Source: Chlorogloea sp. CCALA 695 (GTDB lineage: Bacteria > Cyanobacteriota > Cyanobacteriia > Cyanobacteriales > Chroococcidiopsidaceae). Taken from it: DNA of 38,612 nucleotides. A model generated the notes under the pieces. The model saw only the letters and a list, made by a program, of their open reading frames with translations, did no database searches and was not told the origin of the DNA. A program made the position numbers and the translations under genes. The stretch covers positions 1-38,612 of the forward strand of contig NZ_PVWN01000046.1 of NCBI RefSeq assembly GCF_003003885.1. Reading direction: 5' to 3'. This document shows, in pieces, positions 8,126-38,612 of the stretch (positions are counted from its first letter, which is position 1; the number at the start of each line of letters is the position of its first letter).

Positions 8126-8141
8126 TTACCTCTAATCACAG

Positions 8142-8216
8142 CTTTCCTACGCTGGTATTACCCAGTCTCAGGTTCTAAGGGACTATCTCAGCCTGGCTTA
8201 TCAGACACCCCTAGCT
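8142..8216 (-). promoter_or_regulatory. TPP riboswitch (THI element)
   Basis: Reading the minus strand, the conserved blocks come in order: GGGGTGTC, then CTGAGA, then CCCTTAGAACCTGA, then TGGGTAATACCAGCG followed by TAGGA. These are the hallmark segments of the thiamine-pyrophosphate aptamer. It ends about 22 bases before the thiC start and close to the ribosome-binding site, which suggests control of translation initiation by sequestration. That mechanism is inferred. Confidence 0.95.
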
Positions 8217-8266
8217 TGATTTCAAATGTTAGCACTTTCACTTATAAAATGGCACAAAAATTTGTT

Positions 8267-11952: not shown

Positions 11953-12645
11953 ATGACTGAGCAAACAATTCAAGAACAAATTGCTTACTACAAAGCTAGA
12001 GCTAAAGAATATGATGAATGGTTTTATCGAATTGGGCGCTATGATCGCGGATTGGAAATAAATCAGCGTTGGTTTGATGAAGTTGCGGCGCTCAAAAATG
12101 TTGTCCAGCAAGTGGGAATTGTTGATTCGATATTAGAGTTAGCTTGCGGTACTGGAATATGGACACAAGAACTTTTAAAAATTGGCAAGCAAGTTACAGC
12201 GATAGATGTTTCCCAAGAAATGATTGAAATTAATCGCCAAAAACTAAACAACGCTCTTAACGTAGAATATCGGCAGCTAGATTTATTTTCATGGCAACCA
12301 GACAAACAATATGATCTAGTTTTCTTTTCTTTTTGGCTATCTCACATTCCCCCCGCAAAAGTTGATGAGTTTTTAAGTAAAGTTTATGACTCAGTTCTAC
12401 CAAAGGGGAAAGTTATGATTATTGACTCTTATTTTGAAATAACATCTTCAGCTAAAGATCATCTGCTTCAAAACAAAAATGAAATTTACCAAAAGCGCAA
12501 GCTAAATGACGAGCGAGAGTTTCAAATATTTAAAATTTATTATCAACCTGATGTTCTGCTGCACAAACTAACTCAAGCTGGCTTCCAAGCCGAGGCAAGA
12601 CTTACAGATACATACTTTATTTACGCTCAAGGAGTAAAGGTTTAA
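11953..12645 (+). CDS. Class I SAM-dependent methyltransferase
   Basis: 230 residues with a GGAG ribosome-binding site. The SAM-binding motif I is ILELACGTGIWTQEL (about residues 55-69), with the acidic residue at the end of strand 2 in VTAIDVSQEMI (about 78-88). A motif III-like LPKGKVMIIDSYFE is near 148-161. The N-terminal segment YYKARAKEYDEWFYR is typical of small-molecule methyltransferases. The substrate is unknown. It sits between the DevB-like adaptor and the DUF2834 gene, where devC would normally follow. Confidence 0.92.
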   Translation: MTEQTIQEQIAYYKARAKEYDEWFYRIGRYDRGLEINQRWFDEVAALKNVVQQVGIVDSILELACGTGIWTQELLKIGKQVTAIDVSQEMIEINRQKLNNALNVEYRQLDLFSWQPDKQYDLVFFSFWLSHIPPAKVDEFLSKVYDSVLPKGKVMIIDSYFEITSSAKDHLLQNKNEIYQKRKLNDEREFQIFKIYYQPDVLLHKLTQAGFQAEARLTDTYFIYAQGVKV

Positions 12646-12700
12646 CATTTTTGCAACAGTCTAAATTCAACAGCAAAAGTTACTGAGAGTTCTAAGTTGA

Positions 12701-12723
12701 TTTATAACGAATGTTTGATATAA
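12701..12723. promoter_or_regulatory. Operator-like motif, copy 2 (upstream of the DUF2834 gene)
   Basis: TTTATAAC-GA-ATGTT-T-GATATAA matches copy 1 at 10050-10072 in 20 of 23 positions. It abuts the ribosome-binding site (AAGGAG) of the gene starting at 12734. A truncated variant (TTTATAGACGAATGA) occurs at 13080-13094 ahead of the phosphatase gene. Confidence 0.4.
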
Positions 12724-12733
12724 GGAGATTTTT

Positions 12734-13075
12734 ATGCTTCAAACTACATACTTAATTCTTTGTATCCTGGGAACTATTCTACCTTATTCCCAATTCGTGC
12801 CGTTTTTATTAGAGCATGGCTTAAACCTACAGCTTTTCTTCGAGCAGTTATTTGTCAATCGCATCTCTAGCTTTTTTGCTATGGATTTGATTGTTTCATC
12901 GCTAGCCCTCTGGGTTTTCATATTCTGGGAAGGTTCGCGATTGGGAATGAAAAATTTATGGGTTTATATTGCTAGTAACTTGCTCGTTGGAGTTTCTTTA
13001 GGATTACCGCTATTTTTGCTAATGAGACAGCGAAAACTAGAGGAATATGTTGATAAAAAGTCAGTTTCTAATTAA
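12734..13075 (+). CDS. DUF2834-type small membrane protein
   Basis: 113 residues with three or four hydrophobic segments (about 5-24, 46-68, 73-97) and a charged C-terminal tail. The pattern YLILCILGTILPYSQFVPFL near the N terminus and SSFFAMDLIVSSLALWVF in the middle fits the DUF2834 family of small integral membrane proteins of unknown function. The AAGGAG ribosome-binding site is strong. An operator-like motif lies just upstream, so it may belong to the TetR regulon. Confidence 0.8.
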   Translation: MLQTTYLILCILGTILPYSQFVPFLLEHGLNLQLFFEQLFVNRISSFFAMDLIVSSLALWVFIFWEGSRLGMKNLWVYIASNLLVGVSLGLPLFLLMRQRKLEEYVDKKSVSN

Positions 13076-13170
13076 TAAGTTTATAGACGAATGACACTTC
13101 TTTCAAGTTGTTGCAGTAGAAAAAAGGACATGGTCATTGTAAATAATCGCCATCAAAATAGAGCGGGATT

Positions 13171-13713
13171 ATGTATAGATTTGCTGCGGCATCAAAACAA
13201 GAAATTATCGTGTTTGGATCTGCTAAGCCTGAATTTGCAAATGAAAAAGTGAGTGATTGGATTGGATATATGCAACGTCAAAAAATTGAGCGAGTTTGCT
13301 GTTTGCTACCCAAAAAGCAACTTGCACCTTATGCAAACTTGCTAGGTAATTACGAACAAAAATTTGGACATCAAAAAGTTTGTTGGACACCCATTGACGA
13401 TTTTACAATACCTCACCCTGACGCACTAACTGGAAAAATATTGCCATTTTTGCTTGAAGCAGACAAGCATTCAGAGAAAGTAGTCGTGCATTGTAGTGGA
13501 GGTGTTGGACGTACTGGGCTTGTTTTAGCAGCTTGGCTAGTGTATGGGCGCGGATTCTCTAACAAAACAGCAATTGCAGCAGTCAATCAAACAGGTAGGA
13601 ATTCTTATGAAGCAGCAATTGCAGCAGTTTTTCAAGCAAAAAATCCCCTTAAAGTAGTTGCAGATATTGACTTACTTCTAACGACGATCGCGCATCTGTC
13701 AACCTTTAACTAA
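13171..13713 (+). CDS. Protein-tyrosine/dual-specificity phosphatase-like protein
   Basis: 180 residues with the phosphatase P-loop VVHCSGGVGRTG. The catalytic cysteine is at 108 and the phosphate-binding arginine at 114 (HCX5R(S/T) type). A candidate general-acid aspartate lies upstream in PIDDFTIPHP (about 75-84). The active-site set is complete, so catalysis is plausible, on phosphotyrosine or another phosphomonoester. It lies in the island between the DUF2834 gene and the devC relic. No kinase is adjacent, so its substrate is unknown. Confidence 0.85.
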   Translation: MYRFAAASKQEIIVFGSAKPEFANEKVSDWIGYMQRQKIERVCCLLPKKQLAPYANLLGNYEQKFGHQKVCWTPIDDFTIPHPDALTGKILPFLLEADKHSEKVVVHCSGGVGRTGLVLAAWLVYGRGFSNKTAIAAVNQTGRNSYEAAIAAVFQAKNPLKVVADIDLLLTTIAHLSTFN

Positions 13714-13725
13714 GAACACAAAGCC

Positions 13726-13926
13726 ATGCTGTACAAAACATCTTTTGTTTGGTTTCGCTTTTTTCGCCGCAAAACTTATCTTTGGTTAATTTTGGCGATC
13801 GCATCTTGTAAAGTCATTTACCTATGTGGGACGGAACAACAAAAAGAAAAAAACCGTTTAGCTGTAGCTATTGTCAAGATTGATTTTGTCAAGTTTTACG
13901 CATTTATAAACGATCTATTGTGGTGA
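13726..13926 (+). pseudogene. Relic of the 5' end of a devC-like permease gene
   Basis: A 66-codon open frame. Its segment at 13846-13872 matches codons 15-23 of the intact devC-like gene (14601-14627) in 25 of 27 bases and in the same frame (EKNRLAVAI versus EKTRLAVAI). The similarity fades after about 17 codons, and nothing downstream resembles the rest of the permease. The upstream half does not match. I read it as a broken duplicate of the devC start, left when genes entered or were rearranged within the devBC operon. Confidence 0.55.
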
Positions 13927-13932
13927 ACAAAA

Positions 13933-14550
13933 ATGAGTACCGAAGTTATTTGTTTAGAAATATCTCAAATTGACGCAGCCAGCAAAACCCTTGCTCATGC
14001 TTTTAATGACGACCCGATTTTTCGTCACTTTGCCTCCGAACGCGAACAAGCAAGACTTGGTGCAATTCAGTTGCTTGCTAAAACTGCATTGCGTTACAGC
14101 CAGTCCTACAACCATATTTATACAACCGCAAAGGAGTTAAAAGGAGTCGCAATCTGGATACCTCCAGGCAAATTTCCGCTTAACGACTTACGTTTATTGC
14201 GATTAGGTTTATATACTTTACCTTTCAAACTGCGTCTTAACCGACTAAGGCAATTAATATCACTATTCTTGACGATGGAAAAACATCACAAGCAAGACAT
14301 AACTCAGCCTCATTGGTATTTATTTATGCTGGGTGTTTCTCCCACCTATCAACGCCAAGGGATAGGTAATTTATTGCTGCAACCAATTCTTAAACAGGCA
14401 GATAGTGAAAAATTGTCTTGTTACCTAGAAACCTCAACCGAAGGCGGAGTTCGCTTCTATCAAAGACTTGGTTTTGAAGTAGTGCGAACAGGTGGTTTAC
14501 CAGAAGCAGACTTTAAATTTTGGACAATGAAGCGATCGCCACAATCATAA
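13933..14550 (+). CDS. GNAT-family N-acetyltransferase
   Basis: 205 residues. The acetyl-CoA-binding motif is in LGVSPTYQRQGIGNLLLQPI (about residues 133-152; Q/RxxGxG pattern). The C-terminal YLETSTEGGVRFYQRLGF segment is typical of GNAT proteins that acetylate small molecules. The substrate is unknown. It starts seven bases after the devC relic and ends nine bases before the intact devC-like gene, so it is probably co-transcribed with devC. Confidence 0.9.
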   Translation: MSTEVICLEISQIDAASKTLAHAFNDDPIFRHFASEREQARLGAIQLLAKTALRYSQSYNHIYTTAKELKGVAIWIPPGKFPLNDLRLLRLGLYTLPFKLRLNRLRQLISLFLTMEKHHKQDITQPHWYLFMLGVSPTYQRQGIGNLLLQPILKQADSEKLSCYLETSTEGGVRFYQRLGFEVVRTGGLPEADFKFWTMKRSPQS

Positions 14551-14558
14551 AAATAATT

Positions 14559-15713
14559 ATGTTTAACAAAATCCCTCTAGCGTGGCTGCAAGTAACTAGA
14601 GAAAAAACCCGTTTAGCTGTAGCTATAGCAGGAATTGCTTTTGCCGATGTGTTGATATTTATTCAAATGGGTTTTGAAGGTGCGCTGTACGATTCCGCCA
14701 CCAAACCTCATCGCACCTTGCAAGCAGATTTGGTGTTAATTAATCCACAATTTCAGACATTGTTTTCAGTCAAAAGCTTTCCAAGAGAGCGGTTGTACCA
14801 AGCTTTGAGTTATGAAGGAGTCAATAAAGTTAGTCCGTTATACATTTCTACCGGACAGTGGCAAAATCCTGAAACCCGCGTTAGTCGGGCAATTTTGGTT
14901 TGGGGAGTCGATCCCGCAAGTCCTACTTTCAAGTTTCCTGAAGTAAATCGGAATTTAGACCAGCTAAAGCTATTAAATCAGGTACTGTTTGACCAATCTG
15001 GTCGTCCTGAGTATGGCAAAGTTGCAGATATTTTTAATCAAACAGGTACAGTAGAAACAGAGTTAAATAACAAAATTATCAGTGTCAAAGGCTTGTTTAC
15101 CAACGGATCGTCTTTTGCGGCGGATGGCAATGTTATTACTAGCGACTCCACATTTTTACAACTATTTCCCGATCGCACACCAGCAGAAATTGAAGTTGGT
15201 TTAATTAATTTAACCCCCGGTGCGGATATTGAGCGAGTGCGAAGTCAATTAATCACTGGTTTACCCAATGATGTCAAAGTGTTAACTACCGAAGAATTTG
15301 CCCAAATTGAAAAAGACTATTGGGCAAGTGGTACGGGTATCGGCTTTATATTTGGTTTGGGTGTAGGAGTGGGGTTTATTGTCGGGATCGTAATTGTCTA
15401 TCAAATTTTGTATGCCGATGTCTCTGACCATTTGCCAGAATACGCCACTCTGAAGGCGATGGGTTATACAAACCTATATTTGCTAGGAGTTTTGACCCAA
15501 GAAGCGTTATTGCTGGCAATTTTGGGCTTTTTGCCAGCTTTTGCCCTTTCTTTTGGACTGTATCAAGTCACCTATGCAGCTACACTTTTACCAATTTCAA
15601 TGACCGTAGATCGAGCAGTAACAGTATTAGTGCTAACAATTATTATGTGCAGCGTTTCTGGTGCGATCGCCATGCGAAAACTCCGCTCCGCCGATCCTGC
15701 GGAGGTTTTTTAA
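14559..15713 (+). CDS. DevC-family ABC exporter permease
   Basis: 384 residues from ATG 14559, chosen because FNKIPLAWLQVTREKTRL is the usual DevC N terminus. A cytoplasmic N-terminal segment is followed by the first transmembrane helix (about 20-40) and a large periplasmic domain. Three further helices lie at about 262-290, 310-335 and 350-370, the FtsX/MacB topology. Family knowledge: DevC works with DevB and the ATPase DevA. DevB is 2.7 kb upstream here, and no ATPase gene follows; the next gene is a GAP-family protein. Confidence 0.92.
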   Translation: MFNKIPLAWLQVTREKTRLAVAIAGIAFADVLIFIQMGFEGALYDSATKPHRTLQADLVLINPQFQTLFSVKSFPRERLYQALSYEGVNKVSPLYISTGQWQNPETRVSRAILVWGVDPASPTFKFPEVNRNLDQLKLLNQVLFDQSGRPEYGKVADIFNQTGTVETELNNKIISVKGLFTNGSSFAADGNVITSDSTFLQLFPDRTPAEIEVGLINLTPGADIERVRSQLITGLPNDVKVLTTEEFAQIEKDYWASGTGIGFIFGLGVGVGFIVGIVIVYQILYADVSDHLPEYATLKAMGYTNLYLLGVLTQEALLLAILGFLPAFALSFGLYQVTYAATLLPISMTVDRAVTVLVLTIIMCSVSGAIAMRKLRSADPAEVF

Positions 15714-15732: not shown

Positions 15733-16401
15733 ATGCCATCTTTACTTGCTTATCTTGTGGCGCTCGCTGCCTTAGACAGCCTCAACCCCACTACTACAGT
15801 ATTCCAAATTTATCTACTTAGTACCCCTAAGCCAGTTCCTCGCTCTGTGGCATTTATTGCTGGAGTATTTATTACTTACTGGGCGGCGGGACTTGCCGTA
15901 GTAATAGGAGTAAGTCAATTAAATATCACTTTTCAACTGCCAAATTTAGCGCTATACATAGTTCAACTAATTATTGGCGTAGTCTTATTTTTGTTTGGTT
16001 GGAATCTTAAAGATACTGCCTCTGATTCCCAAAAAATTAAGCCTCTTTCTCAGCTAACGACTTTTCAAGCTTTTCTAGTTGGAGGTGCGGCGACGCTTTG
16101 GGACTTCCCGACGGCGTTGCCTTACTTAGCGGCGATTGAGCGGATTAGTACAACGCAGTTTGATTTATTAACAATAGTGAGCATTCTAGGAATCTACAAC
16201 ACTATCTTTATTTTGCCTCTAGTTGCTTTAGTTGGAATTTACCTTTATCTAGGCGATCACAGTGTAAATTTGATTTCTGCTATTAATCAATCGATCCGGA
16301 AATGGGGACACAAAATATTGCGATTTCTATTGATTGGGCTAGGCATTGTCCTAATCGTCGATGGGATTGCTTTTTTTCTAGGACAACCAATTTTTCAATA
16401 A
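15733..16401 (+). CDS. GAP (SfLAP)-family membrane protein
   Basis: 222 residues with about six transmembrane helices and the N-terminal SLNPTTTVFQIYLL segment. The polar DSLNP in helix 1 and the mid-protein GGAATLWDFPTALPYLAAI fit the GAP/Sap family (related to LysE/CcdA-type transporters), whose mycobacterial members help export glycolipids. The function in cyanobacteria is unknown. It starts 19 bases after devC, so it probably belongs to the same operon, and it could serve export of the same compound. Confidence 0.78.
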   Translation: MPSLLAYLVALAALDSLNPTTTVFQIYLLSTPKPVPRSVAFIAGVFITYWAAGLAVVIGVSQLNITFQLPNLALYIVQLIIGVVLFLFGWNLKDTASDSQKIKPLSQLTTFQAFLVGGAATLWDFPTALPYLAAIERISTTQFDLLTIVSILGIYNTIFILPLVALVGIYLYLGDHSVNLISAINQSIRKWGHKILRFLLIGLGIVLIVDGIAFFLGQPIFQ

Positions 16402-16522
16402 TTTATCCAATTACACGCAACGATTCAAACTCAACAACCCGCTCAGAATCTTTTAATTTCGGGGTTAGAACCTGTTATTTCTGCCTAACAAAAGATTTAA
16501 TAGTAAATTAGCTGAGTATACT

Positions 16523-17131
16523 TTAATCAATAAGCCCAAACTTGTAGGTTTCTAAAATTGTAGCCAAGGTTTTTTGAAAGCTTCTATTTGTACAGATTTG
16601 CTTATTACCAATCGTAAATACTGGTTTTGCTCGGTCAAAAATAGCTGCACAAAGCTGAGAAAGATCGTGCCGGGCGCGATAATAAATTCCATCTACTTGA
16701 GATGGGTGATTCCACAATGCTAATGCCCAACGTTGAGCTACTTTATGCTCTGCAACAGTTAGACGAGCATCAGCGCTTAGGTGGACTACGCCAGAGCCAC
16801 TTAAATCTACTAATTGCAAAGGGCGAGTACAAATAAGCTGGCTAATACTACGCAGAGACAATTCTCGATAGGATATTACCTGAATACCTGTTTGGCTACC
16901 AAAGGTTTCAATAAAGCAGCCCTGGGGGTCAGCAGCGATGTACATTACCCCATATTCTTGCGCTGGAGCGTCAAAGCGGTTTGCACCAGAGTCGCCAAAA
17001 TACAAAGGACTGTGGCGGATCTGATGAATGCGAAACCAAGATTTTTCTATTTGGATAATAGGTAAATTCTGCGCCTGTAAGTCGGTGGGTGGCTCTGGAT
17101 GAAGACCTGGAGAACCTGATTCTACTGTCAA
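16523..17131 (-). CDS. RES-domain toxin
   Basis: 202 residues. The RES domain (about 30-180) shows its defining residues: arginine in RIHQIRHSPLYFG, glutamate in CFIETFG and serine in LVDLSGSG. The segment ANRFDAPAQEYGVMYIAADP is the family hallmark. Family knowledge: RES toxins deplete NAD+ or ADP-ribosylate targets and are blocked by an Xre/MbcA/ParS antitoxin. The start codon overlaps the antitoxin stop (17128-17131, ATGA), so translation is coupled with antitoxin first. All three namesake residues are present, so it is likely active. Confidence 0.9.
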   Translation of the reverse strand: MTVESGSPGLHPEPPTDLQAQNLPIIQIEKSWFRIHQIRHSPLYFGDSGANRFDAPAQEYGVMYIAADPQGCFIETFGSQTGIQVISYRELSLRSISQLICTRPLQLVDLSGSGVVHLSADARLTVAEHKVAQRWALALWNHPSQVDGIYYRARHDLSQLCAAIFDRAKPVFTIGNKQICTNRSFQKTLATILETYKFGLID

Positions 17132-17796
17132 GCGGCTCCCTGCTCTCCATAAATTTTTGCTGCATTCATAACTACTTCTAAATTACCCTCACGTAGCAAT
17201 TCTAAAGGTGATAGCCCACTCAACCTAATATTACCGTTAATCATCCAAGCTGTTTGCATCCAAGGATCGCGAACTTGGAGATGCTGCAACACTTTTTCTA
17301 AACCGCGTAGAGTTTCTCCTGTACCAAATTGCCAGGCTGGATAAACATACGCACGTCCCGCAAGTAATCCGATAAGTTTGCCGTTTAACCGTCGCTTATC
17401 TACAGCTTGGCGTTTAATTCCTAAAATCTGTGCTGCTTCCTCAGAAGATACAATCCCACCTTCGGCTTGAAGTAGCTGCCGTTTTGCTATTAATCCTCGG
17501 ATTTTCGCCTCAGCTAAAGGATCTCTAGACGGAAGAACTTGCATAGCTTCCGGCAGTTGCAACAGTGCCAATAATAGATCGTAATCCGTAGGCGCAGCCG
17601 TTGCTTCTTCTAAAGAAACCTCGTCTGTTAGCGTTAGTAAGGCTCTGATCGCACGAACTAGAAAAATTTGCTTGACTTCTTTCCTACTATGATTAAATTC
17701 TGAGACTAAAGGCAACAGTAGATCGATTGATTCTCTAGGCAGTTGGTTAATACTGCCGTGTAACTGAGTTTTCTTTTCTTCAATAGTCAAACTCAT
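17128..17796 (-). CDS. MbcA/ParS/Xre-type antitoxin of the RES pair
   Basis: 222 residues. The C-terminal toxin-binding domain (about 175-222) has PWMQTAWMINGNIRLSGLSP and ends VVMNAAKIYGEQGAA, as in MbcA/ParS/Xre proteins. A DNA-binding-like helical segment SSEEAAQILGIKRQAVDKRR is at about 118-137. The N-terminal 110 residues are extra compared with short antitoxins and are unassigned. A GGGAGG ribosome-binding site precedes ATG 17796. It probably neutralises the RES toxin and represses the operon through the palindrome at 17829-17844. Confidence 0.87.
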   Translation of the reverse strand: MSLTIEEKKTQLHGSINQLPRESIDLLLPLVSEFNHSRKEVKQIFLVRAIRALLTLTDEVSLEEATAAPTDYDLLLALLQLPEAMQVLPSRDPLAEAKIRGLIAKRQLLQAEGGIVSSEEAAQILGIKRQAVDKRRLNGKLIGLLAGRAYVYPAWQFGTGETLRGLEKVLQHLQVRDPWMQTAWMINGNIRLSGLSPLELLREGNLEVVMNAAKIYGEQGAA

Positions 17797-17933: not shown

Positions 17934-18674
17934 TCAAAGAGCATCCGTATCTATACCACTTGCTCTTAACCTAGCAAGGAGAGTTTCTAACTGTTTTTCG
18001 GCATTTTCTGCTCTTAAACGTTCTTGGTCGGCTTTTAAACGTTCTTGGTTTGCTAATTCTTCGGGGGTAAAATATCTATTTCCCTGCTGATTATACCAAT
18101 ACAAAACCTCACGCTCTAAACCACCACTCCAACTTGTAGCGCGTCCAATTCCTAAATCAATTTCCGCCATCCAAAAAGGTTCGCCCGTTTGCAACTGATA
18201 TTGCTCGTCTACTAACTTATACACTTCAAAAGGTTGGTGTTTGTGACGCTTCCAGTATTCGGGATTATAGATTACATAATATAAAACTCCTAATTTGGCA
18301 TAAGTTGCCATTTTGGAGTTATATTCTCCCCCTGGGGTTTGCGATACCGTTTCTAAAACAAAAATGGGTTGAATGTAATCTTCTTCCCACATTACATAGC
18401 TTTTGCGCGATACATTCCCCGGCTTGCGGCGACTGGTTCCCAAACTCAAAAAACCATCAGGGACTACAGGGACTAAATGATTAATGCCCGTGGTGTGATA
18501 AACTCCCATATCAACAGCGAAAAACCAATCAGTACGCTCTGCCCAGATAAACTCTAATAAAAACAAGAGAAAATTGGGAATAAAATTTTGATTTTCGTTA
18601 TCCACTGGCGCGTCGTCTGAACACGGCAATTGGTCGCTACTTGGTAAGTTGAGCTTGGAGTCAGATTTTACCAT
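17934..18674 (-). CDS. Uma2-family (DUF820) endonuclease-like protein
   Basis: 246 residues of the Uma2 family, very abundant in cyanobacteria, with a PD-(D/E)XK nuclease fold. The core segments DMGVYHTTG, VPDGFLSLG (PD motif), PIFVLETVSQTPGGEY (ExxS/T motif) and KMATYAKLGVLYYVIYNP appear in order between about residues 54 and 140. The C terminus is a charged coiled coil (about 205-240) with near-repeats of the QERLKAD type. The biological role of the family is unsettled. It is transcribed in the same direction as, and 22 bases downstream of, purN. Confidence 0.9.
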   Translation of the reverse strand: MVKSDSKLNLPSSDQLPCSDDAPVDNENQNFIPNFLLFLLEFIWAERTDWFFAVDMGVYHTTGINHLVPVVPDGFLSLGTSRRKPGNVSRKSYVMWEEDYIQPIFVLETVSQTPGGEYNSKMATYAKLGVLYYVIYNPEYWKRHKHQPFEVYKLVDEQYQLQTGEPFWMAEIDLGIGRATSWSGGLEREVLYWYNQQGNRYFTPEELANQERLKADQERLRAENAEKQLETLLARLRASGIDTDAL

Positions 18675-18696
18675 TAGATAATTCTCAATTCTTTTC

Positions 18697-19347
18697 TTAT
18701 TTTAAGTTTGAATTAGCCGCCAGGGCGATCGCCTGTGGTAATATGCGGTGTTCTTGAATTTGGATGCGATCGTGTAAAGTTGCGGCGGTATCGTTGGATA
18801 ATATCGGCACGGCAGCTTGACATAAAATAGTTCCGCTATCTACTTCTGGACTTACTAAATGTACCGTACAGCCAGTTATCTTAACTCCTGCTTCTAGGGC
18901 TTGTTCTACGGCTTTGACTCCTTTAAAACTAGGTAATAAACTGGGGTGAATATTAATAATTTTTTCGGGAAAAGCATTAATTAAAACTGATGTAACTATT
19001 CGCATCCAACCAGCCATAATTACCCAATCGACATCGTAACGCTGCAAACACTGAATGATTTGTAAGTCTAATTCTTCCCGGCTACCAAAATCACGGTGAT
19101 TTAATAAAACTGCTGGTACATTCCACTTATATGCACGTTCTATAACTTTTGCACTGGGATTGTTGTAAATTAACACTTTAATTTGAGCGTTTAGTTGCCC
19201 ATTTTTGATAGCTTCTGCTACAGCTTCAAAATTACTTCCACTACCGGAGGCTAAAACCCCTAGTTTTAAAGGTGTTTCCTTGTTTGAAACCGAAGAAATA
19301 CTTGGAGAAATTAAACTAGCAGTATCATCGACTGAAAACAGCGTCAT
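18697..19347 (-). CDS. purN: Phosphoribosylglycinamide formyltransferase (GART)
   Basis: 216 residues. It transfers a formyl group from 10-formyl-THF to GAR, the third step of purine synthesis. The phosphate-binding LASGSGSNFEAV is at about 32-43. Catalytic residues are visible: Asn and His in INIHPSLLPSFKG, and Asp in VSPEVDSGTIL. A short N-terminal extension (about 25 residues) precedes the enzyme fold. It diverges from the sugar permease gene with only 18 bases between the two starts, so their promoters must lie inside the neighbouring gene or overlap. Confidence 0.95.
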   Translation of the reverse strand: MTLFSVDDTASLISPSISSVSNKETPLKLGVLASGSGSNFEAVAEAIKNGQLNAQIKVLIYNNPSAKVIERAYKWNVPAVLLNHRDFGSREELDLQIIQCLQRYDVDWVIMAGWMRIVTSVLINAFPEKIINIHPSLLPSFKGVKAVEQALEAGVKITGCTVHLVSPEVDSGTILCQAAVPILSNDTAATLHDRIQIQEHRILPQAIALAANSNLK

Positions 19348-19365
19348 ACAGGAAAAAATTTGTAA

Positions 19366-20250
19366 ATGGCAAAACTATATAGTAGGGCGTGGTGGGATAA
19401 TGAGGAAGTCGCCGCCTGGATATTCTTAACTCCAGCACTCCTATTTTTGGGCGTATTTCTCCTCTATCCGATTGCTTATTTGTTTTACATCAGCTTTACG
19501 GCGGGTAGCTTTACATCTTCTGGTGTCAAATGGATAGGTTTAAGAAACTATTGGCGTTTGCTAGTTACTCCAGATTTTTGGCAAGTTTTAGTTAATACTA
19601 CTTATTTCACCTTTGCAACGGTAATTCCTAGCTTAGTAATTCCTTTGGGATTAGCCGTACTATTAAATCGCTCTATTAGCTTAAGAGGAATATTACGCAG
19701 CGCCTATTTTTTGCCTTCTATTACGTCTCTTGTTGCTGCTGGCTTGGGTTTTCGGTGGCTATTTCAAACCGAAGGCGCTGTAAATGGACTATTAAATATA
19801 TTTGGATTAACCCCGATTCCTTGGCTAAGTAGCACCGTTTGGGCAATGCCTGTATTAATTTTACTCAGTGTTTGGAAACAAATAGGTTTTAATATGGTGG
19901 TGTTTTTAGCAGGATTGCAAGCAATTCCAATTAGTCGCTACGAAGCGGCGGAACTAGATGGCGCTAACTCGTGGCAGCAATTTCGGTATATTACTTTACC
20001 AGGATTGCGCCCGACAATTGTTTTTGCGGCGATTACTACAGCAATTTTTACCCTCAGAAGTTTTGAGCAAGTGTATGTAATAACTGGCGGTGGCCCGTTA
20101 AACTCTACTAACTTGCTTGTGTACTATATCTACCAAGAAGCCTTTGGACAATTTGATTTTGGTTATGCGGCGGCGGCGGCTACAATATTACTTGCGATCG
20201 CATTACTACTGGTATATCTGCAATTGCAAACCTGGGAAGAAGATTCTTAA
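19366..20250 (+). CDS. Sugar ABC transporter permease (MalF/UgpA type)
   Basis: 294 residues with six transmembrane helices. The cytoplasmic EAA loop is EAAELDGANSWQQFRYITLP (about 202-221), which contacts the ATPase. The N-terminal half has TPALLFLGVFLLYPIAYLFY, usual for MalF-type permeases without the long periplasmic insert. No binding protein, second permease (MalG type) or ATPase lies nearby, so it must assemble with subunits encoded elsewhere. Its 3' end overlaps the rhodopsin gene by four bases in convergent orientation. Confidence 0.9.
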   Translation: MAKLYSRAWWDNEEVAAWIFLTPALLFLGVFLLYPIAYLFYISFTAGSFTSSGVKWIGLRNYWRLLVTPDFWQVLVNTTYFTFATVIPSLVIPLGLAVLLNRSISLRGILRSAYFLPSITSLVAAGLGFRWLFQTEGAVNGLLNIFGLTPIPWLSSTVWAMPVLILLSVWKQIGFNMVVFLAGLQAIPISRYEAAELDGANSWQQFRYITLPGLRPTIVFAAITTAIFTLRSFEQVYVITGGGPLNSTNLLVYYIYQEAFGQFDFGYAAAAATILLAIALLLVYLQLQTWEEDS

Positions 20251-20951
20251 ATGGCTGACGATTCGTAGCTTGGTATTGATCCTGTAGTTTTTTCTAAGGT
20301 GTGCATAGAGTTTAAAGATAAAAATCCAAACCCAACTTTAGAAGTTATATCCAACAAAGTATAAAACATTGTCTCTGTACCTTGATTGATAGCACTAAAT
20401 CCTGTATTCCCCAGCAGCCAGACAATCGGGTAAAGCGTCCATAGCACTAAATGCACCGATAACAATTTACGAAATACTTTTTTAGCTTGAGGATAATTTC
20501 GCTCTGCTTGTTTGCGATATTGATTGACTAGCAAGTACACCGTAGCCAAGAAAGCGAAGCAGCTAACAACATACCAAATATACCCTACCGTCCTATCGGC
20601 GGAAATAGTCGCCACAAAGCCTGTAGCAATCATATAAGCATTAGCGCCTAGTAAGCTTGCGGTAATAGGTAAGCTAGTTTTACCCAAAAAAGTCAAGTCA
20701 ATAATTAGTAACGGTGTAGATAAAAACCAAGTAATATATCTTACCCAAACCGTAGGACGACCTGCAATAACACTTCTACCTTGACCTAGTGCCATTGATA
20801 AATATAAACCCGCCGCGATCGCACAGATGAAAAAATTAATTGTAAATAGTATTTTCCACCGCTCATTTTTGGCATTGTGCGCGCCAATTCCAAAAAAAGC
20901 CGATCCTAGTGTCATCCCAATTACACCAATCCACAGCCAAACCTGACCCAT
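20247..20951 (-). CDS. Microbial (type I) rhodopsin, light-driven anion pump of the cyanobacterial TSD halorhodopsin type
   Basis: 234 residues with seven transmembrane helices. Helix G has LDITSKVGFGF, giving the counter-ion Asp201 and the retinal Schiff-base Lys205. Helix C reads RYITWFLSTPLLIID. The three functional positions equivalent to bacteriorhodopsin D85/T89/D96 are Thr74/Ser78/Asp85, the TSD motif. Retinal-pocket aromatics are present (Trp75, Trp171, Tyr174, Trp178). Thr at the D85 position excludes an outward proton pump. TSD proteins from Mastigocladopsis repens and Synechocystis sp. PCC 7509 pump chloride inward, and the latter also sulfate. Anion pumping is therefore inferred from family knowledge. 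AAGG serves as ribosome-binding site. No retinal-forming oxygenase lies in the window. Confidence 0.95.
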   Translation of the reverse strand: MGQVWLWIGVIGMTLGSAFFGIGAHNAKNERWKILFTINFFICAIAAGLYLSMALGQGRSVIAGRPTVWVRYITWFLSTPLLIIDLTFLGKTSLPITASLLGANAYMIATGFVATISADRTVGYIWYVVSCFAFLATVYLLVNQYRKQAERNYPQAKKVFRKLLSVHLVLWTLYPIVWLLGNTGFSAINQGTETMFYTLLDITSKVGFGFLSLNSMHTLEKTTGSIPSYESSAI

Positions 20952-21041
20952 ACTAAACCTTGAAACCTAATAACGGTTAATTTACTAAGGTTTTGGTACT
21001 TTGACTTCCTCAAAAAGTAGGAAATTGAACTGTTAAAATTG

Positions 21042-21806
21042 CTACAGTTCGCTTGCTGAATCTGTATCTAAAAACAACGTTGCTTGAGCAAACTTGCGTA
21101 AAATCGAAGCTGGGCAAGTTGTAGAAATGGGAAGTTGCAACATATTTTTTACCGCCGTAGCTTTCCGCTTTTCTGGCGCTAGGCAAAGTATTTTATTGCT
21201 ACCACAAATTTGGGGAACTGTCAAGGTAAAAGCATATTGCGGCACATCTTCAATGGTATAAAAATAACCCGCACTTACTTGTTGCTGGCGGGTAATTGAT
21301 TCTAACTTCACTAAGATTATTTGCCTAATTTCGTCAAAAGATGCTACCGATGGTTCATTAAAAGCCAAGTGTCCGTTTTCGCCAATGCCAAGGAAACATA
21401 AATCGATAGGTTGCGCTTGTAATAATTGAGTATAGCGATCGCATTCTCCTAATGGTTGGTCGCAGTCGCCAACTATGTAATGAAAAACCGCAGAACTTAC
21501 TTTTTTTTCGACGTTTTTGTGCAAATAGTAACGAAAACTCCCTGGATGTTGGGGGTTAATTCCCAAATACTCATCAAGATGAAAAAAGACAACCCGCGAC
21601 CAATCTACACCACCCAAGGCAATTAGCGCTTCTAAAAACTTAAGTTGAGAATTACCCGTCGCTAAAATTATCGTCGCTTGACTTTGTTTTGTTAGCAGAG
21701 TTATTAAATAATTTTGGGCTATTTTTGCCGCATCCTTTGTTAAAGTAGTTGGGTCGTAGATATGTACTGTTAGATCGTCAACTTGAAAGTTTTTTACAGA
21801 ACCCAT
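21042..21806 (-). CDS. nagB: Glucosamine-6-phosphate deaminase (NagB family)
   Basis: 254 residues. It would convert glucosamine-6-phosphate to fructose-6-phosphate and ammonia. The NagB signature is clear: VVFFHLDEYLGINPQHPGSF (catalytic Asp of the LDEY motif, about 73-92) and LCFLGIGENGHLAFNEP (about 131-147). These separate it from 6-phosphogluconolactonase. The length is slightly short but complete. It is 90 bases upstream of the rhodopsin gene on the same strand, so read-through between the two is possible, though a functional link is not obvious. Confidence 0.9.
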   Translation of the reverse strand: MGSVKNFQVDDLTVHIYDPTTLTKDAAKIAQNYLITLLTKQSQATIILATGNSQLKFLEALIALGGVDWSRVVFFHLDEYLGINPQHPGSFRYYLHKNVEKKVSSAVFHYIVGDCDQPLGECDRYTQLLQAQPIDLCFLGIGENGHLAFNEPSVASFDEIRQIILVKLESITRQQQVSAGYFYTIEDVPQYAFTLTVPQICGSNKILCLAPEKRKATAVKNMLQLPISTTCPASILRKFAQATLFLDTDSASEL

Positions 21807-22072: not shown

Positions 22073-23044
22073 ATGCGATCGCCCATGACTTATCTTGAAA
22101 CCGCCGCCCAGTTTTATAGTGATGTAGCCGAGACTCCTCAAGTTGGGCTATGTTGTGTTCAAAGTACCCCTTTGCAGCTACCAGGGTTAAATATTCCCAC
22201 CCAGATGCAAGAAATGAATTATGGCTGCGGTACTACCGTCCACGCTGCCGAACTTGTAAACCAACCAACGGTGCTTTATGTAGGGGTTGGTGGCGGCTTA
22301 GAAGCCTTGCAATTTGCTTATTTTTCTCGCCGTGCGGGGGCAGTTATTGCCGTAGATCCAGTTCCCGCCATGCGCGAAGCCGCCGCCCGTAATCTGCAAA
22401 TCGCCGCTCAAGAAAACCCCTGGTTTGAAGCAAATTTTGTTGAAATTAGAGCCGGGGATGCTTTTAAATTACCTGTAGCTGATGCTTCAGTAGATGTAGT
22501 TGCCCAAAATTGCTTGTTCAATATCTTTGAACCTGCGGATCTTTCGATTGCCCTGCAAGAGGCGTATAGAGTCTTGAAACCCGGTGGACGCTTGCAAATG
22601 AGCGATCCTATTGCGACACGTCCTATTCCTTCTCACCTCCAGCAAGACGATCAATTAAGGGCAATGTGTCTATCGGGGGCGCTTACTTATGAGGAATATA
22701 CAGCACGAATTGTTGATGCAGGCTTCGGACAAGTAGAAGTGCGATCGCGTCGTCCATATCGACTTTTAGATAGTCATACTTACAATTTGGACGAGCATTT
22801 ACTTTTAGAAAGTCTTGATTCTGTCTCTTTCAAAGTCCCAATTCCCGAAGATGGGGCTTGTATTTTCACAGGAAAAACCGCTATTTACACCGGAAAAGAA
22901 GCAATTTTTGACGATAATGCTGGGCATATACTCCAGCGTGGTATTCCCGCCGCCGTCTGCGATAAAACTGCGGCAAAACTTGCCTCCAAAGACGTAATTA
23001 TTACTAATTCTACTTGGTACTACGATGGTGGCGGTTGCTGCTAA
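22073..23044 (+). CDS. arsM: Arsenosugar-type arsenite methyltransferase ArsM
   Basis: 323 residues (ATG 22085 is an alternative start). SAM-dependent methyltransferase with motif I VLYVGVGGGLEALQF (about 67-81) and the acidic VIAVDPVPAMRE (about 91-102). Cysteines expected to bind As(III) are present: the CC pair in GLCCVQS (27-28) and Cys in NYGCGTT (52). A second CC ends the protein (DGGGCC). The short N-terminal CC form, with a radical-SAM gene directly downstream, is the arrangement of arsenosugar biosynthesis in cyanobacteria. It should methylate arsenite to the dimethyl form. No ArsR gene is adjacent. Confidence 0.9.
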   Translation: MRSPMTYLETAAQFYSDVAETPQVGLCCVQSTPLQLPGLNIPTQMQEMNYGCGTTVHAAELVNQPTVLYVGVGGGLEALQFAYFSRRAGAVIAVDPVPAMREAAARNLQIAAQENPWFEANFVEIRAGDAFKLPVADASVDVVAQNCLFNIFEPADLSIALQEAYRVLKPGGRLQMSDPIATRPIPSHLQQDDQLRAMCLSGALTYEEYTARIVDAGFGQVEVRSRRPYRLLDSHTYNLDEHLLLESLDSVSFKVPIPEDGACIFTGKTAIYTGKEAIFDDNAGHILQRGIPAAVCDKTAAKLASKDVIITNSTWYYDGGGCC

Positions 23045-23104
23045 AAAAAATTAAATAGTTTGAATGAATACATCTAATATTTCTGACTCATTTAGTTAAT
23101 AATT

Positions 23105-24091
23105 ATGGTGCAAACAGTCCTAACATCTTTCAAGGATAAATTAAATTTACCTCTAGTTAAGAAACAAATAACTACCTTACAAATTAATTTGGGTAAACGT
23201 TGCAATCTTGCTTGCGCCCACTGTCATGTAGAAGCAAGCCCGAAAAGAACAGAAGAACTTAGCCCAGAGGTTTGCGATCGCCTAATTGAAATTATTAATA
23301 CATTTCCCCAAATCCAAACCGTCGATCTTACTGGTGGTGCGCCAGAGATGAATTACGGATTTAAACCTTTAGTAAAAGCCGCTACAAAAGCCGGGAAAAA
23401 GGTAATTATTCGCTCTAATTTAACTATCTATTTTGTATCAGGGTTTGAAGATATACCTGAATATTGTGCTAAACATCAAACTCAAATAGTTGCTTCTTTG
23501 CCCTGCTATTTAGAGGATAATGTCGATAAAATGCGAGGTAAAGGTGTTTATAACGATTCAATTGCAGCCCTGCAACGTCTCAATCAATTAGGTTATGGAA
23601 AAGATGCTAATTTAATCTTAGATTTGGTATATAACCCGCCAATACCAGTCTCAGATAAATTTAGCTTAACTCCAGAGCAAACTAAGTTAGAGCAAAGTTA
23701 CAAAGCATACTTACAAGAGCATTTTAATATAGTTTTTAATAATTTATACACAATTACCAACTTGCCAATTGGGCGAACTAAATTTCAATTGGAAAACAAG
23801 AAACTGCACAGACCTTACTTGCACTTTTTAGAGTCAAACTTTAATGCTAGTACCGTTGAACATTTAATGTGTAGAAGTGAGCTTTCAATTGATTATTTGG
23901 GCAATGTATACGACTGCGACTTTAACCAAATGGAAAATTTACCAGCTAAAACTCGTAATGGTGAAACATTGACCGTTGCTAAGTTGTTAGAATCGGGAAG
24001 TTTAGATTTGATTAATGAAATTAAAACTGCTCCTTATTGTTACGGCTGTACGGCGGGGAGTGGTTCTAGTTGTGGCGGCGCTTTGGTGTAA
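23105..24091 (+). CDS. arsS: Arsenosugar biosynthesis radical SAM protein ArsS
   Basis: 328 residues. The radical-SAM cluster motif CNLACAHCHVEASP (CX3CX2C) is at about 33-46. DLTGGAPEMNYGF follows. The C-terminal half contains further conserved cysteines (CRSELSIDYLGNVYDCDFNQ at about 257-276) and ends with CYGCTAGSGSSCGGA, as in ArsS. It is thought to add the 5'-deoxyadenosyl group from SAM to dimethylarsinous acid, giving the arsenosugar precursor. It lies 60 bases after arsM on the same strand, so the two form a pathway operon. Confidence 0.92.
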   Translation: MVQTVLTSFKDKLNLPLVKKQITTLQINLGKRCNLACAHCHVEASPKRTEELSPEVCDRLIEIINTFPQIQTVDLTGGAPEMNYGFKPLVKAATKAGKKVIIRSNLTIYFVSGFEDIPEYCAKHQTQIVASLPCYLEDNVDKMRGKGVYNDSIAALQRLNQLGYGKDANLILDLVYNPPIPVSDKFSLTPEQTKLEQSYKAYLQEHFNIVFNNLYTITNLPIGRTKFQLENKKLHRPYLHFLESNFNASTVEHLMCRSELSIDYLGNVYDCDFNQMENLPAKTRNGETLTVAKLLESGSLDLINEIKTAPYCYGCTAGSGSSCGGALV

Positions 24092-24180
24092 TTTCGCTAA
24101 GACTTGTGACTATAGATAGAATAATTCTGTCACCACAAATGTTACTTGTATAGGGATAGTTGATAACAAAGTAAAAATTA

Positions 24181-24678
24181 ATGAGCGATCGCACTGGCAA
24201 TATTAAAAAGCTGCACGACATGGTTAAAGACATCAGGTTTGCCATGCTGACTACTGTAGAAGAAGATGGCTCTTTACGCAGCCGCCCAATGGCAACCCAA
24301 GAATTTGAATTTGATGGCGATTTATGGTTTTTTACGAGCGCCGATGCGACTAAAGTTAACGAAGTACAGCACGAACACCATGTTAATGTTAGCTATTCTG
24401 AACCAAAAGATCAAAAATATGTTTCGGTATCAGGTACAGCCCAATTAATCCGCGATAAATCTAAAATAGAAGAACTATGGAATCCTCTATTTAAAGCTTG
24501 GTTTCCTGATGGATTAAACGATCCTCAACTTGCGCTGCTAAAAGTTAGTGTAGATAAAGCTGAGTATTGGGACTCGCCATCTAGTAAGGTAGTGCGTCTA
24601 TTAGGGTTTGCAAAAGCACTGGTCACGGGTAAACAAATTGGTAATCCTGGCGACAATGCCAAAATTGAAGAGATTTAG
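24181..24678 (+). CDS. Pyridoxamine 5'-phosphate oxidase-fold protein (general stress protein 26 type)
   Basis: 165 residues with the split-barrel flavin-binding fold. Key stretches are IRFAMLTTVEEDGSLRSRPM (about 18-37), DGDLWFFTSADATKVNEV and VNVSYSEPKDQKYVSVSGTA. The C terminus has the KAEYWDSPSSKVVRLLGFAK segment of the GSP26-like subfamily. These bind FMN or FAD and are associated with stress, but the reaction is unknown. It follows arsS by 89 bases with its own ribosome-binding region, so linkage to arsenosugar synthesis is uncertain. Confidence 0.9.
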   Translation: MSDRTGNIKKLHDMVKDIRFAMLTTVEEDGSLRSRPMATQEFEFDGDLWFFTSADATKVNEVQHEHHVNVSYSEPKDQKYVSVSGTAQLIRDKSKIEELWNPLFKAWFPDGLNDPQLALLKVSVDKAEYWDSPSSKVVRLLGFAKALVTGKQIGNPGDNAKIEEI

Positions 24679-37694: not shown

Positions 37695-37814
37695 AAGCAA
37701 GAAAAATCAGCGTTTTTCCTAGTGGCGTGTTAGAGTCGAGGGCTGGTATTATCCAGCGCCCCTCCCTGTTAGATCCGGACGTGCGACTTTCATCGCATCC
37801 GGCTCCCGATTCAA

Positions 37815-38546
37815 TCAGGCAGTGCCTTTGCTCATGTGGGCGTAATCATGGCATGACTCATGTAGAGCTTCCAGATTGTTGTTTTTCCAGTTTTGGTGAT
37901 TTCCATCTTTATGGTGCAGGTGTACCCGCTCCTGAGATGTAGTCTTTAATCCGCATCTGGCACATGAATGGTTTTGTCGTTTTAGGACTTTAGAGGTATT
38001 ACCATCATAGAGCTTACTATTACGTTCGCTCCAATAGGTCAAATCGCCGTCATAGGGTGATTTATTCCCTTTAACGTTGATATGTTTATTTTCGGAGTGG
38101 AAAACTGTTGGGAAGGCTTTATCTAACAATGTTTTGCTAGTGTAGCGATTCAGCTTTTTTTCCTTATTGAACACCTTAAACGCTCTTGTTTCGATGTGAT
38201 ATAACGAGTTTCTAGACCCGTCCATCTTGCAGAAGCGATGGTAATTCCTCCACCCTCTAACGATGGGAGCTAATTTCTCAGCTTTTACCTTCGCACCATA
38301 GTTACTGTTGTTGACGATGTGTTTTACTTTCTGACGAAAGGCTTTGAAGTTGTCCACTGAGGGGACGCATCTAAACTTCCCGTTGCTTTGCACTTTAAAG
38401 CGCCAGCCGAGGAAATCAAACCCATCTGTCGTAGCGGTTATTCTGGTCTTCTTTTCACTTACCTTTAATCCGCGTTCTGCTAAAAATTGGCTAATTCGTT
38501 CAAGTATTTGTTCAGCATCATCTTGAGGTCGGAGAATTAGTCGGGT
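37815..38546 (-). CDS. Group II intron reverse transcriptase/maturase with HNH domain, C-terminal exon of an interrupted gene
   Basis: The open frame runs from just inside the window end (TRLILRPQDDAE at 38546 downward) to the stop at 37815, about 243 codons. It carries the end of the reverse-transcriptase domain directly after the expected YADD catalytic motif (segment GFDFLGWRFK), then the maturase X domain (APIVRGWRNYHRFC). A C-terminal HNH endonuclease domain follows (CARCGLKTTSQERVHLHHKD with a later HESCHDY). No start codon belongs to it. A stop codon at 38559-38561 and intron-like sequence precede it, so the N-terminal part is separated by an insertion. Confidence 0.88.
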   Translation of the reverse strand, partial: TRLILRPQDDAEQILERISQFLAERGLKVSEKKTRITATTDGFDFLGWRFKVQSNGKFRCVPSVDNFKAFRQKVKHIVNNSNYGAKVKAEKLAPIVRGWRNYHRFCKMDGSRNSLYHIETRAFKVFNKEKKLNRYTSKTLLDKAFPTVFHSENKHINVKGNKSPYDGDLTYWSERNSKLYDGNTSKVLKRQNHSCARCGLKTTSQERVHLHHKDGNHQNWKNNNLEALHESCHDYAHMSKGTA

Positions 38547-38612
38547 AGGGCAGGAGCATTACTGCTCCCTTCCCCCCTAGAAACCGGACTTACAAGTTTC
38601 CAAGTATCCGGC
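38547..38612 (-). mobile_element. 3' end (domains V-VI) of a second, nested group II intron
   Basis: Upstream of the truncated reverse-transcriptase frame, the minus strand shows a domain V-like hairpin (38580-38612: GCCGGAT...GAAA...GTCCGGTTTC). A domain VI-like hairpin follows, with a perfect GGAGCA-GTAA-TGCTCC core and a flanking GGGG/CCC stem interrupted by an unpaired A. The reading frame resumes immediately after it. The domain V helix 2 has mismatches (ACTTG versus CTTGT), and the element runs out of the window, so the call is tentative. Confidence 0.6.

Follow-up and report, generated by a model that had tools for sequence, protein, structure and literature searches.

The window, the whole stretch of 38,612 nucleotides from Chlorogloea sp. 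CCALA 695 that was analysed here (contig NZ_PVWN01000046.1), contains a rhodopsin gene whose product is an ortholog of SyHR, the halorhodopsin of Synechocystis sp. PCC 7509, and very probably acts as a light-driven, inward, electrogenic chloride pump that probably carries sulfate along the same path. This reading draws on the sequence and its homology, the clade into which the protein falls, its conserved residues, the purifying selection on the gene and a homologue of a retinal-forming oxygenase in the genome, all of them results of the present analysis. The gene is one more close ortholog, from a congeneric species, of a pump with a published structure and published transport, and its product is nearly a known protein. 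Together with the copy in Aliterella, it provides natural variants of SyHR at 86-93%. What most deserves following up is the distribution of residues at site 183, at the anion entrance: a comparison of 58 rows of cyanobacterial halorhodopsins (CyHRs) shows a sulfate-permissive residue to be widespread there, and commoner than the published statement has it.

Identification of the gene

The rhodopsin reading frame occupies exactly positions 20247-20951 on the minus strand, with an ATG start and a TAA stop, and encodes 234 amino acids that include a TSD motif; frame 1 of the plus strand has many stops over the same interval. The earlier note had claimed a gene here without giving its strand, and the claim is borne out by the open frame and by a match to PF01036 (residues 3-219, E 1.4e-53; 182.1 bits, the cut-off being 24.6), the single match to that profile in the source genome (G000; 5.2 Mb in 168 contigs). 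Its annotation as a cyanobacterial halorhodopsin and SyHR ortholog uses the ORF, PF01036, sequence identity and the tree. Thr74, Ser78, Asp85, Asp201 and Lys205 all stand where the note had placed them, in an alignment register shared with SyHR and MrHR, the halorhodopsin of Mastigocladopsis repens. The seven helices that it had also described hold by way of the crystal structure of SyHR (PMC9617919), 93% identical, from which they are carried over, but a hydropathy scan of the protein itself picked out hydrophobic stretches that did not amount to all seven, the seventh being absent altogether. From that 93%-identical structure, 7zou, we infer a microbial rhodopsin fold, in which Lys205 is the Schiff-base lysine and Asp201 the counterion on helix G.

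Relationship to SyHR and MrHR

The best solved relative of the window protein is SyHR (phmmer E 4.6e-146 to 7zou_A, and three further entries). Among the best 60 of 182 matches, the MrHR entries come next (E 4.4e-108 to 2.2e-106), and other rhodopsins rank below these, from E 1.9e-46 (6lm0) down. The window protein and SyHR (Synechocystis sp. PCC 7509; PDB 7zou, 7zov, 7zow, 7zoy) have the TSD motif in common, are of equal length, and are identical at 218 of 234 residues (93%); for MrHR (PDB 6xl3, 6wp8, 6k6i-6k6k), which also has the TSD motif, the figure is 158 of 223 (71%). The genome collection places SyHR in the same genus, where the ortholog in one genome (G389) is SyHR letter for letter, which makes the source of the window a near relative of Synechocystis sp. 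PCC 7509. Aliterella atlantica CENA595 holds a copy 86% identical to the window protein, and another genome of the same genus (G388) encodes the same protein as A. atlantica does. (The latter, represented by L001 and L088, is a comparison genome in PMC12587747, which reports bacteriorhodopsin-like genes in an Antarctic Aliterella genome, unlike the reference genomes; G388 also has a second rhodopsin.)

How much of SyHR is retained? The two proteins agree at 27 of 28 tabulated sites, most of them drawn from PMC9617919, PMC11995866 and PMC9525653. The agreement extends to 63, 71, 74, 78, 85, 104, 118, 137, 167, 183, 193, 201 and 205, to all of which these three SyHR papers assign roles. The exception is site 124, where the window protein has Tyr, as does MrHR. 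H124Y is one of 16 substitutions relative to SyHR and the sole one among twelve basic residues scanned by others; in SyHR, the change H124A is reported not to affect transport significantly (PMC11995866). Another, L84I, adjoins the key residue Asp85, and the 16 substitutions together could alter the kinetics relative to SyHR.

At the nucleotide level, 614 of 702 positions are identical to the SyHR gene in G389, with dS 0.65, dN 0.033 and dN/dS 0.05. This ratio, together with the phmmer E value to 7zou_A, puts the rhodopsin match far beyond chance. That the gene encodes a sensor, or is a decaying copy without function, we consider very unlikely. Decay does occur in the family: relatives in the window's family have copies in which the frame is split or holds internal stops (L005/L074/L086 in G404; L075 and a second piece in G395), which suggests repeated loss of the pump. 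The window gene, however, has an open frame, keeps its functional residues and evolves under a low dN/dS, and a Pfam scan of 20 window proteins (of 50 window ORFs) showed no transducer. A sensor or pseudogene was rejected on the open frame and the dN/dS.

Clade placement

In a maximum-likelihood tree of 83 rhodopsin rows, the window protein pairs with SyHR (support 100/99), and A. atlantica joins next (100/99). The CyHR clade, comprising 36 rows with the window protein among them, is supported at 98/98. The earlier note had assigned the protein to the TSD halorhodopsin clade, and that is where it falls. Forty cyanobacterial rows with Asp74 and Pro201 form a separate clade (100/99), which we read as xenorhodopsin-like, the name being our own reading. 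Seven other rows (L069, L076, L089-L093) fall outside CyHR; several of these are long-branched and their own places are unsure. The 83-row set leaves out haloarchaeal halorhodopsins, sequences equal to others in the set (L003 = L046, L071 = L001, L070 = SyHR), the window's own copies (L007, L040), the broken L005/L074/L086 copies and three fragments (L075, L084 and L006). Some N-termini are approximate, the start having been taken as the ATG nearest the match, or as the start of the match.

CyHRs are defined by TSD, or TSV/TSL/TSI, at positions 74, 78 and 85 (PMC9617919), and the window protein has Thr74, Ser78 and Asp85. His167 on helix F, reported in the same paper as characteristic of the CyHR clade only, is present in the window protein, in 36/36 CyHR rows and in 0/47 other rows of the 83-row set. 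Judged by the sequence characters of CyHRs that were examined, the protein can be classed as one of them. The haloarchaeal halorhodopsins HsHR and NpHR pump anions inwards, as it very probably does, and share its Thr-Ser at the start of the motif, but they have Ala at the third position, lack His167 and belong to a separate clade (PMC9617919), a distinction made here by description; the third position of the window protein is Asp85, so that it departs from the haloarchaeal motif T-S-A. Cyanorhodopsins (CyR, CyR-II) and xenorhodopsins are, like the window protein, microbial rhodopsins of cyanobacteria. The CyRs, on the other hand, are outward proton pumps, and N2098R has Asp74 (PMC7541481, PMC11528372), where the window protein has Thr74.

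Could the window protein nevertheless pump protons outwards, in the manner of a cyanorhodopsin or bacteriorhodopsin, with Asp85 as the proton donor? It does have an Asp at the donor position, and the single change T74D is described as making MrHR a proton pump (introduction to PMC9617919). Against this, site 74 is Thr and not the Asp found in proton pumps, Ser78 and His167 are as in CyHRs, and the rows with Asp74 (L069, L076, L090, the 40 Pro201 rows and others) lie outside the CyHR clade. Outward proton pumping is therefore extremely improbable, and it was rejected on Thr74, which leaves the protein without an Asp acceptor. The earlier note had valued the gene as a useful intermediate for studying pump conversion, since it keeps Asp85. 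The residue is indeed there, but the point is already in print, Asp85 being discussed in the introduction to PMC9617919; moreover, it is found in 34 of 58 CyHR rows and so is not diagnostic of the clade. That paper had already covered the CyHR clade itself, its TSD motif, the question of Asp85 and the T74D conversion of MrHR.

Some rows have unusual motifs. Within the CyHR clade, L072 and L073 (from G396 and G394, of the window's family) have Ser-Ser-Ile, with Ser replacing Thr74, and L118 (G773) has Thr-Thr-Val. A plasmid collection contained 12 rhodopsin records, all less than 60% identical, of which five were examined. Three of these are haloarchaeal: L090, which is bacteriorhodopsin-like; L093, which matches archaerhodopsins weakly; and L091, flanked by a chemotaxis receptor on one side and by a response regulator on the other. 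The other two are L092, from Salinibacter, and L089, from a plasmid of Deinococcus aetherius (NZ_AP026562.1), which has the unusual motif Thr-Thr-Gln and is 39% identical to the window protein.

Proposed transport mechanism

The binding sites, photocycle, direction and substrates in the following outline are carried over from the papers on SyHR and MrHR. All-trans retinal would be bound on Lys205. In the dark, a chloride ion would lie close to the protonated Schiff base; Thr74 and Ser78 would hold it there, and Asp201 and Arg71 would be close by. Light would isomerise the retinal, upon which the anion would pass the Schiff base to the region of His167 on helix F and then be released into the cell, while the next anion, coming in from the extracellular basin, would pass Thr183 and Arg71. 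The net effect would be inward electrogenic transport of chloride, and probably of sulfate by the same path. In SyHR, the R71A mutant is reported to retain 8% of sulfate and 65% of chloride activity, and H167A 30% and 33%, respectively (PMC11995866).

The supply of retinal appears to be provided for. G000 encodes two RPE65-family oxygenases, one close to the apocarotenoid-15,15'-oxygenase 2biw (E 2.5e-196) and the other more distant (E 1.1e-69). A whole-genome search for a retinal-forming carotenoid oxygenase, proposed in the earlier note, thus gave a positive result, and one that was to be expected, since diox1 is reported in 152 of 154 cyanobacterial genomes (PMC7541481). An enzyme of the Brp/Blh type (PF15461) had no match in G000, but the control genomes gave none either, so that this negative carries no weight.

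Sulfate is the substrate on which the readings diverge. The published evidence for sulfate transport by SyHR is a light-induced change of pH in E. coli, and in the crystal grown in sulfate this ion was seen on the protein surface only, 28 A from the Schiff base (PMC9617919). The absorption of SyHR is reported to shift to the blue with chloride and to the red with sulfate. The window protein has the sulfate-type entrance, with a neutral residue, Thr183, accompanied by Arg71 and Glu193; the roles of site 183, Arg71 and Glu193 in sulfate pumping are described in PMC9525653 and PMC11995866. It is also SyHR-like at all three residues by which mutational studies tell SyHR and MrHR apart, namely Thr183, Ala63 and Ala118, which strengthens the suggestion that it moves sulfate. 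MrHR, by comparison, has the equivalents of Arg71, His167, Glu193, Asp201 and Lys205 in common with the window protein, but has Asn63, Pro118 and Glu182 in place of Ala63, Ala118 and Thr183.

The protein might instead be a chloride/bromide pump like MrHR, without useful sulfate transport, an account that differs from the SyHR-like one on sulfate only. MrHR is, after all, 71% identical, and as a halide pump it gives no more than a faint signal with sulfate (PMC9525653). Even SyHR favours chloride, with a Kd of 0.112 mM against 5.81 mM for sulfate (quoted in PMC9617919), or binding that is tighter by 'six times' according to PMC11995866. However, the entrance residue is Thr183 and not the Glu182 of MrHR, Ala63 and Ala118 are likewise SyHR-like, and Glu or Asp put at site 183 is reported to weaken sulfate pumping by SyHR (PMC9525653). 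A halide-only pump of the MrHR type was set aside on Thr183 and is retained as an unlikely alternative; the likelihoods that we attach to it and to the SyHR-like pump overlap, both being inward chloride pumps.

The entrance residue among cyanobacterial halorhodopsins

Is the neutral entrance a peculiarity of SyHR? A paper from 2022 describes the entrance Glu as conserved, with its replacement by Thr only in SyHR (PMC9617919). The 58 distinct CyHR rows contradict this, since 37 of them are neutral at site 183 (Thr 33, Ser 2, Ala 2), these being from nine genome families, and Glu is found in 21. Twenty of the Glu rows come from one other family, that of G334, and the remaining one is MrHR. In the G334 family, 21 of the 217 genomes searched had a match (E up to 1e-60), and all have Glu, duplicates included. 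No report of this distribution was found in the open-licence literature among the matches listed.

The rows come from overlapping samples: 388 genomes of the class, 19 genomes in the family of the window, 217, 36 and 42 of three other families, 388 genomes of the order and six genome contigs. Sampling was by genome collection and is not exhaustive; in the order and the three other families a match had to reach E 1e-60 or better to be retained, and the families of 36 and 42 genomes added no new row. The total of 58 was reached from 62 rows by removing the duplicates L095, L098, L108 and L006; the partial row L119 is counted but was left out of the tree.

In a tree of 60 rows, the 21 CyHR Glu rows make up one side of a branch (96/95). 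In a tree of 39 rows, on the other hand, the five CyHR Glu rows do not form one fork, L004 standing apart from the other four; taken with the three outgroup rows that have Glu at this site (L069, L076 and L090), Glu there needs two changes, and a single change suffices in only 20% of bootstrap trees. The inner branching of CyHR is largely without support in both trees. By parsimony, a neutral residue at 183 may be ancestral within CyHR, although those three outgroup rows have Glu there.

Loss of the negative charge at the entrance is described as a prerequisite for sulfate transport in mutants of MrHR (PMC9525653), and many CyHRs may for this reason move sulfate. It is possible, though we would put it somewhat short of an even chance, that sulfate pumping is the common condition of CyHRs, that MrHR is a specialised, sulfate-excluding exception, and that the restriction of Thr to SyHR was a product of narrow sampling. 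Site 183 alone may not suffice, on the other hand, because the other two SyHR-like residues are scarce: Ala63 occurs in 2 of 58 rows (the window protein and SyHR; one row is gapped there) and Ala118 in 4 of 58. Rows such as L044, L047 and L051 combine Thr183 with Pro118 and a residue other than Ala at 63. Two laboratories differ over the importance of sites 63 and 118 (PMC9525653 versus PMC9617919), one of them finding that they do count. The distribution raises two questions: did the lineage of MrHR acquire a sulfate-hindering charge, and do many cyanobacteria take up sulfate with the energy of light?

Genomic neighbourhood

Upstream of the rhodopsin gene lies an intergenic stretch of 90 nt (20952-21041, minus strand) that is conserved with G389, matching at 81 of 90 positions without gaps and at 76 of the 81 nearest the start codon. 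This exceeds the expectation from synonymous sites (dS 0.65), and hints at a kept promoter or regulatory leader. The corresponding stretch in A. atlantica is clearly less similar. A scan of the upstream stretch for consensus promoters gave 8 hits against 5.6 in shuffles (sd 2.6), which is no enrichment, and a terminator scan found none (shuffles 1.4). Beyond this stretch is a gene of the glucosamine-6-phosphate isomerase/6-phosphogluconolactonase family (PF01182; 21042-21806, minus strand), and its co-transcription with the rhodopsin gene is possible. The isomerase adjoins the rhodopsin in G389 as well, but the A. atlantica locus showed no copy of it.

On the other side, beyond the 3' end of the rhodopsin gene, are an ABC transporter permease (PF00528; 19366-20250, plus strand), which is convergent and overlaps the end of the rhodopsin gene by 4 nt, a purN formyltransferase and a Uma2 protein. 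The order rhodopsin, permease, purN, Uma2 is kept in G389, and so at the SyHR locus, and in A. atlantica, which makes the permease a marker of synteny. None of the neighbours suggests a dedicated partner of the pump. Compared with G389 (L094) and A. atlantica (L001), the block 17934-21806 that contains the rhodopsin gene is turned round relative to the flanking genes at 11953-15713. The junction of this inversion (15733-17796) contains a SfLAP-like gene, a RES-domain gene and an ORF without assignment. The RES-domain gene (PF08808) is preceded by an overlapping ORF of 222 amino acids without a Pfam match (together 16523-17796, minus strand), an arrangement that we take to resemble a toxin-antitoxin pair of the RES type.

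Elsewhere in the window, profile matches identify ArsM (NF038099) and ArsS (TIGR04167), a pair for arsenosugar biosynthesis, with a pyridoxamine-oxidase-like gene after them (22073-24678, plus strand). A TPP riboswitch is located at 8127-8222 on the minus strand, and two matches to group II intron domains lie near the window end, at 37729-37807 and 38540-38612 (minus strand).
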